Position numbers and translations under genes: made by a program. DNA of 55,030 nucleotides from a bacterium (GTDB lineage Bacteria > Patescibacteriota > Minisyncoccia > 1-14-0-10-42-19), in assembly GCA_030690215.1 (NCBI GenBank), contig JAUYHD010000011.1:1-55030 (forward strand), written 5' to 3'. Below, piece by piece: positions 1,541 through 51,607 of this stretch. Position 1 is the first letter of the stretch, and each line of letters begins with the position of its first letter. Below the pieces are notes generated by a model, which saw only the letters and a program-made list of their open reading frames with translations, did not search any database and had not been told where the DNA came from.

Positions 1541-1679
1541 CCCCGTAAGACAATATCGCATAATACGTCATGCGTTCGCCGCTCACTACACGCGCACTGA
1601 TTTGTTTTCTTGCTTTCCCAAAAATGTTGTTTTGTAAAATGACATATAAGAATGCATCATGCGATATTGCTCTACGGGG
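1541..1679 (+). mobile_element. Type A palindromic element, copy A1 (139 bp)
   Basis: CCCCGTAAGACAATATCGCAT...ATGCGATATTGCTCTACGGGG; TCAA on both sides (1537-1540, 1680-1683). Confidence 0.8.
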
Positions 1680-15101: not shown

Positions 15102-15382
15102 CCCCGTTTGGCTAAATCGAAAGCTGTATCTACGTCTGACGGATACTGTATGTGGTTAAAGAAACAACGGTCCGTTGAGCATATTGTCGAAATTTGCTGG
15201 TAGATACAGCAAGCCCCGTTTGACACTATCACATGGTAAGTCATGCGTTCGCCGCTTTTATTATGTGTATAGTAGATTTCTTTTTCATTGTACATATATT
15301 GTCCACACAAGGACTTACAAGAATGCATTATGTGATAGTGTCTTACGGGGCAAGGAAGACGATTCGATTTTGCCTAACGGGG
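15102..15382 (-). mobile_element. Type B element, copy B2, interrupted by A3
   Basis: Reverse-complement alignable to B1 when 15214-15350 plus one 4-bp duplication are removed; TCAA on both sides. Confidence 0.75.
15214..15350 (+). mobile_element. Type A element, copy A3 (137 bp), nested in B2
   Basis: CAAG-CCCCGTTTGACACTATCACAT...ATGTGATAGTGTCTTACGGGG-CAAG; 4-bp TSD. Confidence 0.85.
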
Positions 15383-35301: not shown

Positions 35302-35771
35302 ACTATCGAACATTCATGAAAAAGTTTTTATCAAGGTCCCTTGCATAATAATGCTTGGGACTTTTTATTTTATCTTATTAATTTTAACTTATTAATACTT
35401 TGTGAAAAATACCGAGGAATAAAAAACCCATCCGGCAAGAATCAAGTCCCGATATACCGATGATTTCGTAACCACCCTAGAGCGTCCATACCACCCGCAC
35501 GGGCTAGCCTACGCCTTCTTTCCCGACGGTTTGGTCGGGGCTCCGACTTCAATATTTTGAATTTATAACAGTGCGTCGGAGCTTAAGAGGGAGCAGTCCC
35601 GATCCAGCTTTCCATTGTAGATAATTACGTGAATAGCGGGATCGAGGATCCTCGATATTGCGTCCGCCCTGGAGGGCTCGTCCGCCGTCTCCGCCGGCTG
35701 GCGGAGACGGCGGATTGCGATTTGCAATCGCGCGAAGCGCGAGCAAATCGGGAAAACCTACGACCTTCTCC

Positions 35772-35805
35772 TTTCCGCCATAGGCGGATCAGCCTCTGGC
35801 TGAAA
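35772..35805. repeat. Double-hairpin module, copy 1
   Basis: TTTCCGCCATAGGCGGATCAGCCTCTGGCTGAAA. Confidence 0.85.
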
Positions 35806-35836
35806 GGGGGGGATTTAACTTGAATTCAGTATTTCG

Positions 35837-35909
35837 TCCGCCCAGCAGGATTCGAACCTACGACCTTCTCCTTAAGAGGGAGCAGCTCTACCAACTGAGC
35901 TATGGGCGG
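35837..35909 (-). tRNA. tRNA-Lys(CTT)
   Basis: CCGCCCA/TGGGCGG acceptor, GCTCAGTTGGTAGAGC D arm, CTCC-CTCTTAA-GGAG, GTAGGTTCGAATCCTGC T arm. Confidence 0.92.
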
Positions 35910-35925
35910 ACGAAATATTGGATCA

Positions 35926-36171
35926 TCAATTATTTAACATTTCATCAAGATATTTTCTGCCGATGCCTGATTTCAAAAAATTTTCGCGTTTTCTCGCCTC
36001 TGTTTTATTATCACATCCTTCTTGATAAATTAATTCAAAGGGCCCATTTCTTTTGGTGAATTTACTCGCACCATAATTATGTTGCTTCAACCGCTCTTTA
36101 GGTAATAATTCTGTACTCCCAGTATAGCGCTTACCATTCCTTAAGCTTTTTAATACATAAACAAATGACAT
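35926..36171 (-). CDS. GIY-YIG nuclease family protein
   Basis: MSFVYVLKSLRNGKRYTGSTELLPKERLKQHN...TEARKREN. Confidence 0.85.
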   Translation of the reverse strand: MSFVYVLKSLRNGKRYTGSTELLPKERLKQHNYGASKFTKRNGPFELIYQEGCDNKTEARKRENFLKSGIGRKYLDEMLNN

Positions 36172-36193
36172 ATGTAAAGAAAATATCTTCTCC

Positions 36194-36227
36194 TTTCCGC
36201 CATAGGCGGATCAGCCTCTGGCTGAAA
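36194..36227. repeat. Double-hairpin module, copy 2
   Basis: Identical 34-mer to copy 1, in the anticodon-loop position of a tRNA-Lys 5' part. Confidence 0.85.
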
Positions 36228-36320
36228 GAGGGAGCTACTCTACCAACTGAGCTAAGGGCGGACGCAATATCGGGACTCTACTAATTCCGACGCTTAATTC
36301 GGGACTACTAGCGGAAAATA

Positions 36321-36802: not shown

Positions 36803-37288
36803 TTACGTATGCCTATCGGCAAGCACGAACGCACCAAACGAGTACGGCTTTACCGCGGCTTCAAATCCGTATCCTTTCACCATGCCCACAACAGCATCTA
36901 TTAAATCACGCGTCGGGCCATTCTCGCCTACATCCAAATGAACCGTCAAATTATTGTTCCAAAAAAATTCTTCTCCAAGTTTATCCTTAAGGGCGCTTCG
37001 CAATTCCTGGGTAAATACAATTGACCGCATCGTCTCCTTAAAAATTCTGTCCTGAAGCGTCCCGCATTTTTCGGGCAAAGAACGCGACCAAAAATATCTC
37101 CCTCCATTCCCTATGCGGTGCACCCCCACCGCCGTCACAAAACATACTTCTTTTTCGGCGCGAGAGTCGCTCCCTACCACAATGTGATAGCGTACATCAG
37201 GTTTTTGGCGGATATACGAAACAAGCTCTTCTATGAGCCCATCAAAAGTAAAGCTTCCTACACTATTATGAAAATGTTGGTGAGTCAT
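36803..37288 (-). CDS. YkuK-like (DUF458) RNase H-fold protein
   Basis: YHIVVGSDSRAEKEVCFVTAVGVHRIGNGGRYFW...HLDVGENGPTRDLI. Confidence 0.8.
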   Translation of the reverse strand: MTHQHFHNSVGSFTFDGLIEELVSYIRQKPDVRYHIVVGSDSRAEKEVCFVTAVGVHRIGNGGRYFWSRSLPEKCGTLQDRIFKETMRSIVFTQELRSALKDKLGEEFFWNNNLTVHLDVGENGPTRDLIDAVVGMVKGYGFEAAVKPYSFGAFVLADRHT

Positions 37289-37289
37289 A

Positions 37290-37434
37290 CCCCGTTAGGC
37301 TAAATCGAAAAACGTCTTTCTTACAAAACCGCAGAAGATATTTCGATGTTTACCTTTGTTTGTACTTTTAATATTCATACTTTGTATTACCCCGCAAGAC
37401 GTAAAGGTTTTGCTTTCGATTTTGCCATACGGGG
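37290..37434 (+). mobile_element. Type B element, copy B3 (145 bp)
   Basis: CATA-CCCCGTTAGGCTAAATCGAAA...TTTCGATTTTGCCATACGGGG-CATG. Confidence 0.8.
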
Positions 37435-37446
37435 CATGTATTTCTA

Positions 37447-38259
37447 TTATAAAAGACTGCTCTGGACATCAGAGTGAAGCTGATATTCCTTGTCGGTACG
37501 ACGCGCGCGAAGAATTCTATCAAGCTTAAATATGCGATTCCCCTTGCGAAGGTGGCAATATCCCTCAATAGTTGCCGTATTCAATGTATATACGTCAACT
37601 AATCGGGTATTGAGCGAACCGCCTCCATGTTCAGGATTTTTTGTCACATAATCAATTTCAACGCTCCTTCTGGAATCAAACGCGTCTTTCAATACCTGGA
37701 ATACATTCCCCTGGAACTCTTCACCCCATCGCACAGGAATAGACACCTCGCCCAACGCGTCACGCGGAACGAACTTTATATGTCCCTGCTTTTTCCCATA
37801 TTCATATAATTCCTTTGTAACTTTTACATCTTGCACGCAATAATCTTTAACTTCCTGTATCCGTCCTTCGCGAAACCACTGGAGTGCTTGTAACCCGTCA
37901 GCGCTCTTTGAGATGCTCAATGTTGTCCGCGCCAGATTATCAAGCGACACGCGAAACCCTACTCCGCGTACTACATCATCCATCATATCAAGCATGGGAA
38001 CTTCTTGCAGATTAATAGATGTGTACGGCTGAAGCACGGGAATATCAAATCCTGTGATATTAAACCCAACCAACAAATCAGTACTGCGTATCATGTCTTC
38101 AAATTTCTGTAATTCGTGCTCCTCAAATACATGATACTTGTCATCATCCGATGTGTGAGCGGCAAGAACAGAAATACCGAGTTTATCCACAAAATCGCGA
38201 CCGCCGACTTCGGCAAATTCTTTTTTTGTTTCAATATCAAAAACGATAATATTTTTCAT
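37447..38259 (-). CDS. DEDD-type exonuclease with C-terminal WYL-like domain
   Basis: IIVFDIETKKEF, FNITGFDIPVL, VKDYCVQDVKVT; C-terminal RRSVEIDYVTK...EGYCHLRKGNRIFKLDRI. Confidence 0.75.
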   Translation of the reverse strand: MKNIIVFDIETKKEFAEVGGRDFVDKLGISVLAAHTSDDDKYHVFEEHELQKFEDMIRSTDLLVGFNITGFDIPVLQPYTSINLQEVPMLDMMDDVVRGVGFRVSLDNLARTTLSISKSADGLQALQWFREGRIQEVKDYCVQDVKVTKELYEYGKKQGHIKFVPRDALGEVSIPVRWGEEFQGNVFQVLKDAFDSRRSVEIDYVTKNPEHGGGSLNTRLVDVYTLNTATIEGYCHLRKGNRIFKLDRILRARRTDKEYQLHSDVQSSLL

Positions 38260-42277: not shown

Positions 42278-43789
42278 TTATTTTAAATAATATAGATGAA
42301 TAATTGAAGTAGCTCTGCGATTGAGCAACTCCCCTATGCGTGAAAAAGTAAACCCAAATGTATCCCGCAATTCTTCCACTATGCACTTACGAACATAAAG
42401 CACCTCACTGCTTCTGTCAGCGCTCAAAAGTTTTTCTTTAGAAACGGCATATTTCTTTACAATAGAATCTAAAAGCGCATTGTCATTTGCATGAAGGATA
42501 CCCGGAAAAAAATTCCGTTCCATAAGTTTCTTGCGAAGTTCCTTTGGAGGACCCCAGGAATTAAAAAAAGAGTCGATCTTTTTTGTGGGCGCACTTGCTT
42601 TCAAAAAAGCTAGCATGATTGCAACTTGTCTTGCATAATAAAAATCATTTTTAGTTGCATATTCTTCTTTGCGTCTACGCCTTGTGATATCCTTGGATGC
42701 AACACTAAACGCTTCTGCGGTTTTCTCAACAATATAATTAAGAGACGCACCACCAGGCAATGAATCATACAATTCTTTAAAAATAACGCACGTGCGATCC
42801 CATTGCATCACGCCCTCAGATGCAGAAAAATCCTGGAGACCATCTACAAAACACTTTGCCCTCTCCCAAAGTTCATGTGTGCGCAATTTTTCTTTTATTT
42901 TCTCAAGATCTTTTTGAGCTTTTGCAAGAGAACAACTCAATCTCACGCTTATTTCTTGGAAGGTATGCTCTTTTGTATTACCCAAGCCATAATATAGGGT
43001 AAGAATTTTACGCTCCCCATTAGTAAGAAGCGCGTCACGAAGAACTTTATGTACAAACGCTTGCAAGTCACTCTCACTCGCAACGTCTTCCTGCGACACC
43101 CTTTCGTCAACGACATAATCAACTAAAACGCCTTCGTCGTCTTCAGAAATAGCACGGCTTGCATCAAGAGAAATCTTTTCGCGCCAAAATTCTTCTGTGA
43201 AAAGCACCCAACGAACTATATTAAAAGGTTTGTCCATTTCCTTCGCGATTGCTTCAACTGTAACATCCCCTTCTTCACTTTTAATCTTATAAACAACTTT
43301 TCTTAACTTGCTTATAGCTGCCATCATACGAGTAGATATTTCTAAACTACCGCTTATAGCATCATACATTTCTTTTCTAACCCACCATCCAGCATACATC
43401 ACAAAACGACCGTCTAGATTATAATCATAGCTTGTAACAGCTTTTGTAAGACCGATCATTCCTTCTTGTATCAAATCAGGCTCATCAAGCACTGGGTTTT
43501 CAAATAAATTATAAGAAAAAGCAAAACTACGCGCGTATTTATGAACAAGTCCTTTATACTTAAGGATAATCTTATTCCTTAAACGTATTCGTTCTTTTGG
43601 GTCTGACGCTTTTCTATATTTCTCAAAAAGCAACAAATCATCGGGGCGATAACAGAACAAATCTTTAAGTTCTTTGCATGAAAGTTTTTTAGATGTTTTA
43701 GAGGGCACTGATCTATTTCCGGTTACCCAATCAATCTCTTCTCGAACAGTAAAACTACTTTCGGCAGAAAGCGTATTAATATTATTCAT
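42278..43789 (-). CDS. Sigma-70-family factor with C-terminal DnaA domain IV-like repeats
   Basis: Region 2-like DLIQEGMIGLTKAVTSYDYNLDGRFVMYAGWWVRKEM, region 4-like ERKILTLYYGLG...TFQEISVRL; C-terminus resembles Bac_DnaA_C. Confidence 0.8.
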   Translation of the reverse strand: MNNINTLSAESSFTVREEIDWVTGNRSVPSKTSKKLSCKELKDLFCYRPDDLLLFEKYRKASDPKERIRLRNKIILKYKGLVHKYARSFAFSYNLFENPVLDEPDLIQEGMIGLTKAVTSYDYNLDGRFVMYAGWWVRKEMYDAISGSLEISTRMMAAISKLRKVVYKIKSEEGDVTVEAIAKEMDKPFNIVRWVLFTEEFWREKISLDASRAISEDDEGVLVDYVVDERVSQEDVASESDLQAFVHKVLRDALLTNGERKILTLYYGLGNTKEHTFQEISVRLSCSLAKAQKDLEKIKEKLRTHELWERAKCFVDGLQDFSASEGVMQWDRTCVIFKELYDSLPGGASLNYIVEKTAEAFSVASKDITRRRRKEEYATKNDFYYARQVAIMLAFLKASAPTKKIDSFFNSWGPPKELRKKLMERNFFPGILHANDNALLDSIVKKYAVSKEKLLSADRSSEVLYVRKCIVEELRDTFGFTFSRIGELLNRRATSIIHLYYLK

Positions 43790-48497: not shown

Positions 48498-49670
48498 CTA
48501 GGGCAGAAAAGCTTTAAACCAGCGCCACAAAAGCGAACCCCCTTTTTCAGAAATGCCTGCAAAAATACCGCGCTTGTTTCTTTCCTCTGATTCATACGCC
48601 AGCAAACAAAGCCCTGTCACTGCCGCAAAGCGCGGGTCAAACTCTTCTGCAAGACCCGATTCTTCTATCGTACGCGCGACTTCAACGGGTAATCGAAGCG
48701 CGCTCCGTCCCATTGTTTCAATATTGAACAAATGCGCCCCTCCGCCCGCAAGCACAACACCTCCCGGCAAAAGACCATCCCTATTAATTTTCTTTAAATG
48801 AGCGCCGACAGATTCAAATATGTCCCCCACGCGCGCGGCAATAATTTCTTCAATCTGTTTTTTATTTGAACCGCGAAACTGCCTATATTCTTGCTTTTGG
48901 CGTTCTGCCTCATCAAGCCCGATACGAAGACCGATTGCGATATCGTGGGTAATCGCTTGCGCGCCGATAGGAAATGCTTTGACCGATACCGGCAAGCCCT
49001 CTTCAAAGATCGCCGAACTTACGGTCCCCGCACCAATATCAAGCGTCATCACGCCAACTTCTTTTTTGTGGTTAGAAAGAATGGCGCGCGAAACAGCCAA
49101 AGGAGAAGCAACAACATCATCTACCGCTACTCCCACGCGCTCGGCGCACGCCGCAATGTGTTCTACGTGCTGGGACAGAGCCGTGATAAATATTGTTTCT
49201 GCTTCAAGGCGAGAGCCGGTAATGCCTACGGGGTTTCGGGTTACCAAATCTTTATCAACCCGAAATAAAAGCGGAAACCGATGAAGAATTTCCTTGTTAT
49301 GATGAGGAACAATGCTTGCGTAGCTCGCGTCTAACACCCGGCTCACATCGCGCTCGCTGATATCTCCTCCATTTGCGTATGGCAACACAATAGACCCGCG
49401 CGCTATCACCGAATCCAAGCTTGTCCCCCCATACGAAAAAAAGGCAGATGAAACCTTCACTCCTGCCATTTTTGTCGCTTGAAAAAGAGATTTTTTAAGC
49501 TGTAATGCTACCGCATCAACGTCTATAATGTCTCCTCGCCTAACGCCTTCGGATCGTACATCGCCAACACCCCGAATCTGCATGCGTCCTGTTGCGTCAT
49601 CCCACTCTGTAATCATCGTTTGGATGCTTGAAACTCCGATATCAATTCCTGTAGCAATGTGACGAGTCAT
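48498..49670 (-). CDS. ftsA: Cell division protein FtsA
   Basis: ATGIDIGVSSIQTMI, VGVMTLDIGAGTVSSAIFEEG, GGVVLAGGGAHLFNIE. Confidence 0.93.
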   Translation of the reverse strand: MTRHIATGIDIGVSSIQTMITEWDDATGRMQIRGVGDVRSEGVRRGDIIDVDAVALQLKKSLFQATKMAGVKVSSAFFSYGGTSLDSVIARGSIVLPYANGGDISERDVSRVLDASYASIVPHHNKEILHRFPLLFRVDKDLVTRNPVGITGSRLEAETIFITALSQHVEHIAACAERVGVAVDDVVASPLAVSRAILSNHKKEVGVMTLDIGAGTVSSAIFEEGLPVSVKAFPIGAQAITHDIAIGLRIGLDEAERQKQEYRQFRGSNKKQIEEIIAARVGDIFESVGAHLKKINRDGLLPGGVVLAGGGAHLFNIETMGRSALRLPVEVARTIEESGLAEEFDPRFAAVTGLCLLAYESEERNKRGIFAGISEKGGSLLWRWFKAFLP

Positions 49671-49671
49671 A

Positions 49672-49816
49672 CCCCGTTAGGCTACATCGAAAAACGTCTT
49701 CCTTGCAAAACCGCAGAATATATTTCGATGTTCACCCTTTATTGTACTTTTACTAATAATACTTTATGTTACCCCGTAAGACGTAAAGGTTTTGCTTTCG
49801 ATGTTGCCATACGGGG
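49672..49816 (+). mobile_element. Type B element, copy B4 (145 bp)
   Basis: CATA-CCCCGTTAGGCTACATCGAAA...TTTCGATGTTGCCATACGGGG-CATA. Confidence 0.85.
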
Positions 49817-50010
49817 CATACATTCAGTATACCGTGCGCCAGAAGAATTTTGCAAAGTGCGCTGTTCTTAAAACGAGCGCCTTTAACATAATAGCGCAAG
49901 TTCAAAGTTCAAAACTCCCGCCAACAGCGACTCGCTTCGCCAAAGCTTGAGCGAGGCGAGGGCTCGCCCTGGGCGGCAAAAGTCAAAACTATATACACAA
50001 TTAATAATTA

Positions 50011-51243: not shown

Positions 51244-51607
51244 GCCAAAAATTAAGGATTACCGCTTTTCACTAATAATTACTTTATATTATAGCCGAGC
51301 GGGATGACTATAATTTTTGAGCACCCCCTCCTTTTAGACGCTATCAGCACTTCGACTGATTCGCTTGCGGAGACGCCCCCATGAACTTTTGAACTTTTTT
51401 AATTGCCGTTCCCTATCCCGCGCGTCCTTCTCGTTTTGATATGCTTCATACTATACGATGCCTCTTATATCTTTTTCTCTTGTATGCGTTTTTGCTCGCG
51501 CGCGCAAATCTTTGGTATATCCCGTATATAAATCCCCATTGGGCAGTTTTGCAAGATATACATAATACATAGCGCTCAAAAGGAGGGGGTGGAGGTTCTG
51601 CCGCCAC

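Follow-up and report, generated by a model that had tools for sequence, protein, structure and literature searches.

Inverted-repeat miniature elements at start codons of a patescibacterial genome and their GIY-YIG-encoding relatives

Introduction

What kind of sequence lies, in one orientation, exactly at the start codons of ftsA and of a ykuK-like gene in a member of the Patescibacteria, and how did it come to be there? The two genes are found in a window of 55,030 nt, the whole stretch of DNA analysed here (contig JAUYHD010000011.1, assembly GCA_030690215.1), in a genome of 1.02 Mb and 38 contigs (G000). The original prediction was that two copies of one element (type B), B4 and B3, had inserted with the ATG inside the duplicated target, and that genes once leaderless or nearly so had thereby gained a structured leader of ~150 nt. 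Judged from comparative sequence data, we are fairly confident that B3 and B4 are miniatures, themselves non-autonomous, of a mobile element that captures start codons and whose full-length form carries a GIY-YIG gene.

Results

Two elements with the start codon inside the duplicated target

B4 (49672..49816, minus strand) and B3 (37290..37434, minus strand) are each 145 nt long, display 90% identity to each other and share the inverted ends CCCCGTATGGC ... GCCTAACGGGG. Their common orientation and their junctions, GGGG-TATG-ACTCGTCAC at ftsA and GGGG-TATG-ACTCACCAA at the gene 36803-37288, were described correctly in letters and coordinates. The gene-side TATG of B4 (49668..49671, minus strand) contains the start codon (49668-49670) of ftsA (48498..49670, minus strand; FtsA and SHS2_FTSA Pfam domains), and that of B3 (37286..37289, minus strand) contains the start codon of the gene encoding a YkuK-like RNase H-like protein (36803..37288, minus strand; PF04308 by Pfam). 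The outer flank is again TATG for B4 (49817..49820, minus strand) and CATG for B3 (37435..37438, minus strand), the latter unlike its gene-side copy in the first letter, and the ATG thus lies inside the duplicated target at both loci. As claimed, taking B4 out leaves TATACTGAATGTATGACT and taking B3 out leaves TATAATAGAAATACATGACT. A TATACT box (49826..49831, minus strand), a candidate leaderless promoter, is located 6 nt 5′ of the outer ATG of B4, and a TATAAT box (37446..37451, minus strand) is located 8 nt 5′ of that of B3, overlapping the stop codon of 37447-38259.

Two parts of the prediction stand only in modified form. B3 and B4 do belong to one family, but they are not mutually nearest, B4 being closer to a copy at C18:56885-57184 (95%). 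The inserted stretch does sit at the start codon, but it is not merely an untranslated leader, since the left ATG keeps the host promoter and start and a reading frame (MPRMA[TK]SK...) begins there; at B4, the outer TATG opens the frame MPRMATSKAKPLRLTG* into the element.

An FtsA query against the genome contigs gave no match. The gene directly upstream of the B3 insertion (37447-38259) encodes a fusion of an RNase H-type exonuclease domain with a WYL domain, and elsewhere in the window 42278-43789 encodes a single protein that combines matches to sigma-70 regions 2 and 4 with a DnaA DNA-binding domain at its C-terminus.

Empty sites in a sister species

The sister species G002 belongs to the same genus, and its FtsA and YkuK-like orthologs are 85-86% identical to the proteins studied here. 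Neither gene carries an element in G002: the natural empty sites read TATACTAAAGTATATGGCGCGTCAC at ftsA and TATAATAGAAGTATATGACGAAT at the ykuK-like gene, and both genes start at the same codon as in G000. The sites at rpsE, rpsF and cdaA are also empty in G002, so that the predicted insertion at the start codon was confirmed at five genes by ortholog comparison. Conservation of the start positions makes a true start deeper in either reading frame, which would have spoken against the prediction, unlikely. In G002, a TATAAT-like box stands 7-8 nt 5′ of the ftsA and ykuK-like start codons, and the TATACT box of ftsA is kept; across the empty sites, the ancestral ATG lies 6-8 nt 3′ of such a box, which is consistent with ancestral mRNAs that were leaderless or nearly so, as had been proposed. 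Boxes resembling a -10 element in the flanks of B copies have a mean best match of 4.56 of 6, against 4.03 for other window genes. A special preference of B for leaderless promoters was rejected since other window genes carry such boxes too, and the signal appears to reflect the gene starts of this genome more than a proven extra preference.

The duplication is not always exact. An outer CATG together with a gene-side TATG is found at three B copies, namely B3 and those at rpsA (C16:17051) and cdaA (C11:50914), and G002 shows T at both of the sites checked among these. This could reflect mutation of the outer copy or a T carried along by the element.

B copies across the genome

At least 20 near-full B copies, plus fragments, are present in G000. 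In the orientation of the gene, they directly precede ftsA, the ykuK-like gene, rpsA, rpsE, rpsF, hrcA, cdaA and tsaE, and further copies directly precede a ccdA/DsbD-like gene, a pyridine-nucleotide oxidoreductase gene and a 61-codon ORF. About 13 of the 18 scorable B-family sites are gene starts, 12 of them in genes of a named protein family; the 13 take in two nuclease-coding copies abutting VirB4-like and DUF4446 genes, and the 18 are our own count of distinct, scorable sites. As background, the window has 166 non-coding TATG sites, of which 26 are gene starts; against this rate the binomial P is about 1e-7, and 1e-4 with only 10 sites accepted. Copies away from gene starts were found at C15:13480 and C27:1262 (TGTG/TGTA flanks) and as arrays on C18. 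The genome G001 has a single B copy, which is also at rpsF. It differs in subfamily from the rpsF copy of G000, and the rpsF start codon was therefore probably hit twice, independently. Taken together with the empty sites, these comparisons establish insertion and its specificity for start codons as far as genomic sequence can.

This distribution bears on the reading that a conventional transposase (DDE, Y1 or RAYT) moves the elements as ordinary MITEs, and that their position at gene starts would merely mark the tolerated sites of a compact genome. The ends and 4-nt duplications do look MITE-like, and an insertion that restores the ATG would be harmless at a start codon; yet starts are over-represented even against other non-coding TATG sites.

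Most B miniatures have no ORF spanning the whole element, and only a few copies read through to a TAA before the host ATG, so that translational coupling cannot be the only route by which the host genes are translated. A conserved full-length peptide was considered and rejected: a 47-codon ORF is kept in few copies only, and coding selection on the miniatures is thus not supported.

Conserved pairing within the element

The terminal inverted repeats, CCCCGT(AT)GGC/GCC(TA)ACGGGG plus A[AC]ATCGAA/TTCGAT[TG]T, form an end stem in which 98.8% of cells are paired. Across 15 B copies, this stem and two inner helices that cross each other (alignment columns 22-29/108-115 and 34-41/118-125) are conserved, with 96.8% of cells paired against at most 49% in slid controls and with changes on both sides in 13 of 33 pairs. 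The conserved pairing is almost purely Watson-Crick, with G-U in only 2 cells, and it appears to be conserved at the DNA level because G-U pairs are almost absent. By eye, types A and C also show the crossing helix order, in either orientation. One B copy (G000:C6:445-586) resembles a chimera of two subfamilies, in which one crossing helix is broken and the other intact.

Strong covariation, including the two crossing helices, and the uniform orientation before essential genes might point to a riboswitch-like, cis-regulatory structured leader common to a housekeeping regulon. Such a leader is highly improbable, given that the same genes in the sister species lack the element, that the copies show flanking duplications, tandem arrays, nesting and positions away from genes, and that the scarcity of G-U, with the topology shared by types A and C whatever their orientation, points to a role in DNA. 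Rfam at gathering thresholds returned two tRNAs only in the window and no structured-RNA family; a self-splicing or riboswitch reading was dropped for this reason and for the absence of the element from orthologs. An integron attC reading of the GCCTAAC/GTTAGGC ends was discarded as well, the order and spacing of the boxes being unfit.

Types A and C and the evidence of mobility

The window also contains relatives of B. A type A element of 139 nt (1541..1679, plus strand) has TCAA flanks and the same CCCCGT...ACGGGG ends as B, and a type C element (15102..15382, plus strand) is split by a type A insertion (15214-15350) that has doubled CAAG, which is direct evidence, in the sequence itself, of mobility. 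Type A is nested in B and C elements with its 4-nt target (CTTG/CAAG) doubled at C6:185-324 and C8:50827-50966 as well as at window 15214-15350, and of the 40 elements of the wider CCCCGT...ACGGGG group in G000, 34 are flanked by direct repeats of 4 nt or more. The targets of type C, and of most A copies, resemble TCAA, and these elements are not at ATG; the choice of start codons therefore belongs to type B, and similar ends with other targets are hard to reconcile with a conventional MITE that simply settles where insertion is tolerated. A genome search for Y1_Tnp and DDE_Tnp_1, the enzymes covered, found two Y1_Tnp genes and no DDE_Tnp_1. The Y1_Tnp genes could be counted in favour of a conventional transposase, but neither locus carries B-type ends, and a RAYT reading was rejected on the same ground. 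A different transposase acting in trans may move the elements.

A full-length parent with a GIY-YIG gene

Three complete elements of 299 nt (C18:55560, C8:50490 and C5:6) have the same ends and TATG flanks as B. They encode MPRMAKSN[MV]LFWTYVLRSKKDGNMYVGYTKN...SSFDLA, read from the flanking ATG of the target (left flank of GIY_C18_55858, TATAATAGATATATG), in an ORF of ~94 codons; its TAA belongs to the right end (GCC-TAA-CGGGG-T) and precedes the second ATG by 6 nt. The product is a GIY-YIG protein (PF01541, E 1.6e-17, 64 bits against a curated cut-off of 22.6), the nearest solved proteins being the UPF0213 structures 1zg2 and 1ywl. Two more right halves of the parent, at contig starts, abut VirB4-like and DUF4446 genes. 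Because the 299-nt elements share ends, TATG flanks and an ORF starting at the flanking ATG with B, the B elements are, by this resemblance, the miniature form of an element with one gene, which takes its start codon from the target. The only gene in the parent with B-type ends is the GIY-YIG gene, not a known transposase, which again sits poorly with a conventional MITE, and we infer that the GIY-YIG protein moves the element.

Inverted-repeat GIY-YIG elements across the Patescibacteria

G000 contains 17 GIY-YIG matches, several of them within elements of 260-320 nt with other inverted ends. A decayed GIY-YIG ORF in the window (51382..51570, minus strand) lies in such a relative of the coding elements, ~270 nt long and with 23-nt inverted ends (CACCCCCTCC...). 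The layout of the coding elements recurs in relatives: [C]TATG|CCCAGTAAGAC...GTCTTACTGGG|TATG with the ORF MPSKTKSNVFFWVYVLES from the left ATG (L086), AATG|CCCGG...CCGGG|ATG before a gene resembling VirB4/TraG ATPases (L087), and the same layout at L150. In L084 (Jorgensenbacteria), the gene-side ATG is present with TATAG on the left. A second clade, with ends TCCCGTTAGAG, has ATGAN flanks on both sides, and its TGA stop overlaps the regenerated ATG. At one element of this clade (L114, G033), the TAA of the left flank appears to be the stop of the upstream gene, and the element's own stop is supplied by the right copy.

A fixed rule scored an ATG-start gene of at least 60 codons at the right end of each element, with the mirror side as control. 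Gene starts were found at 19 of 38 right ends against 1 of 38 mirror sides in the discovery set (P 1.3e-6, Fisher), and at 13 of 21 against 1 of 21 (8e-5, Fisher) in a replication set drawn from other genomes of the phylum once the rule was in place; its hosts include tsaD (L198). Among GIY-YIG ORFs without inverted ends, only 6 of 56 are at gene starts, compared with the 13 of 21 replication elements (1.4e-5, Fisher). With this last contrast added to the evidence above, a conventional MITE seems unlikely to us, and the start-codon-capturing element with a GIY-YIG parent remains the preferred reading. In both sets together, the script rule assigned no ATG-start gene to the right end of 27 of the 59 elements with inverted ends. 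A left-boundary target ATG in frame with the nuclease ORF was scored in a minority, 8 of 38 by script, a count that is partly low since the boundary call may be a few bases off.

The distance from the nuclease stop to the next ATG is mostly -4 to +11 nt (32 cases), with ATGA overlaps in 10 of 32. Coupling by termination-reinitiation is reported to require short overlaps or gaps (PMC10666635), and these short distances, ATGA overlaps included, suggest that the spacing reflects translational coupling, which would, we infer, keep the host genes expressed.

Some GIY-YIG ORFs lie at RNA genes. In the window (35765-36273), the ORF 35926-36171 adjoins a tRNA gene (35837-35909) and is followed by a partial tRNA duplicate (36226-36273), and C20:7969-8205 shows a like arrangement, which suggests that some GIY-YIG elements insert in tRNA genes and duplicate part of the tRNA. 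The elements L068 (C27:13681-13896) and L122 (G004), with inverted ends CCCCTCAC, lie on the 5′ side of tRNA-like sequences and have longer flanking repeats of 5-7 nt. Another GIY-YIG ORF, with inverted ends ATCCCCTCCTTG (L066, G000:C6:52437-52646), interrupts the genome's own 16S rRNA gene.

The GIY-YIG domain, a homing-endonuclease fold, and the rpsF start hit in two species might be read as the work of free-standing homing endonuclease genes, each homing into one conserved site. Such homing is very unlikely: the starts of many unrelated genes are hit in one genome, the target is a short YATG, the insertions have inverted ends and target duplications, and miniatures that lack the nuclease multiply. 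An earlier study likewise judged that the GIY-YIG inserts of CPR rRNA genes fall outside homing (PMC11270868).

Discussion

The data can be joined in the following model, which leads back to the GIY-YIG parent. A full-length element of ~299 nt, consisting of inverted ends and one gene of ~94 codons for a putative GIY-YIG nuclease, would insert at YATG gene starts, often just 3′ of a -10 box, by a short staggered cut, so that about 4 nt, the ATG among them, are duplicated. The outer (left) ATG and the host promoter would then start and express the nuclease ORF (MPRMAKSN-GIY-YIG), which would end at the TAA in the right end and, 6 nt on, return the second ATG to the host gene; translation of the latter would probably be kept by termination-reinitiation or internal initiation. 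Miniatures, moved in trans, would still have the ends, a short ORF and the preference for the same targets. The ends, the duplications, the empty sites, the location at gene starts and the geometry of the nuclease ORF on which this model builds are evident in the genomes compared. We lean, cautiously, towards the broader proposal of a new class of bacterial transposon in which one GIY-YIG nuclease of ~90 residues would be the entire mobility machinery, targeted to start codons, often using the host promoter, and borrowing an ATG that it returns within reinitiation distance of its own stop.

Such an element illustrates how near-minimal genomes can accommodate a transposable element in essential genes (rpsE, rpsF, ftsA, tsaD) with the genes left intact, the start codon itself being the duplicated target; insertion into essential genes would, if this is true, be tolerable in very small genomes. 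It would account for the many small GIY-YIG genes in Patescibacteria (17 matches here in 1 Mb) and for GIY-YIG inserts in rRNA genes of the phylum that have so far lacked an explanation. Should the GIY-YIG protein prove to be the enzyme, few transposition systems known to us would be smaller, and the system would give an insertion tool placing DNA at start codons. The insertions would also let leaderless and coupled translation be studied, as a natural experiment, in bacteria that have not been cultured.

A search confined to the open-access literature found no description of GIY-YIG elements with inverted ends or start-codon insertion. REP/BIME sequences with a RAYT (Y1) are, like B, palindromic, intergenic and multicopy, but B has 4-nt duplications on both sides, and palindromes flanking a Y1 transposase gene, the hallmark of RAYT/REP systems, were not found, the RAYT-like genes of this genome being without B ends. 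UPF0213-type GIY-YIG proteins (1zg2, 1ywl) and GIY-YIG homing endonucleases share with the parent ORF a single small GIY-YIG domain, and the PF01541 match above the curated cut-off places the parent ORF in this family. Unlike them, it is enclosed by inverted repeats and, in elements of the B type, starts at the ATG of its target; spread into gene-free alleles at a single long specific site, the hallmark of homing endonucleases, was not seen. B resembles MITEs in several respects: at ~145 nt, it has terminal inverted repeats, a short target-site duplication with corresponding empty sites, many copies, some of them nested, and no functional gene. B differs from them in its start-codon target in one orientation, in a parent encoding only a GIY-YIG nuclease, and in subterminal inverted repeats that follow a swapped (crossing) order with covariation. 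Finally, GIY-YIG proteins have been described in CPR rRNA insertions whose sequences are unlike either intron type and which seem to lie outside homing (PMC11270868). These are alike in placing a GIY-YIG ORF in a non-intron insertion, with a case of our own in the 16S rRNA gene at C6:52437, but they were reported as uncharacterised only, whereas the ends, the duplications and the start-codon capture are defined here.
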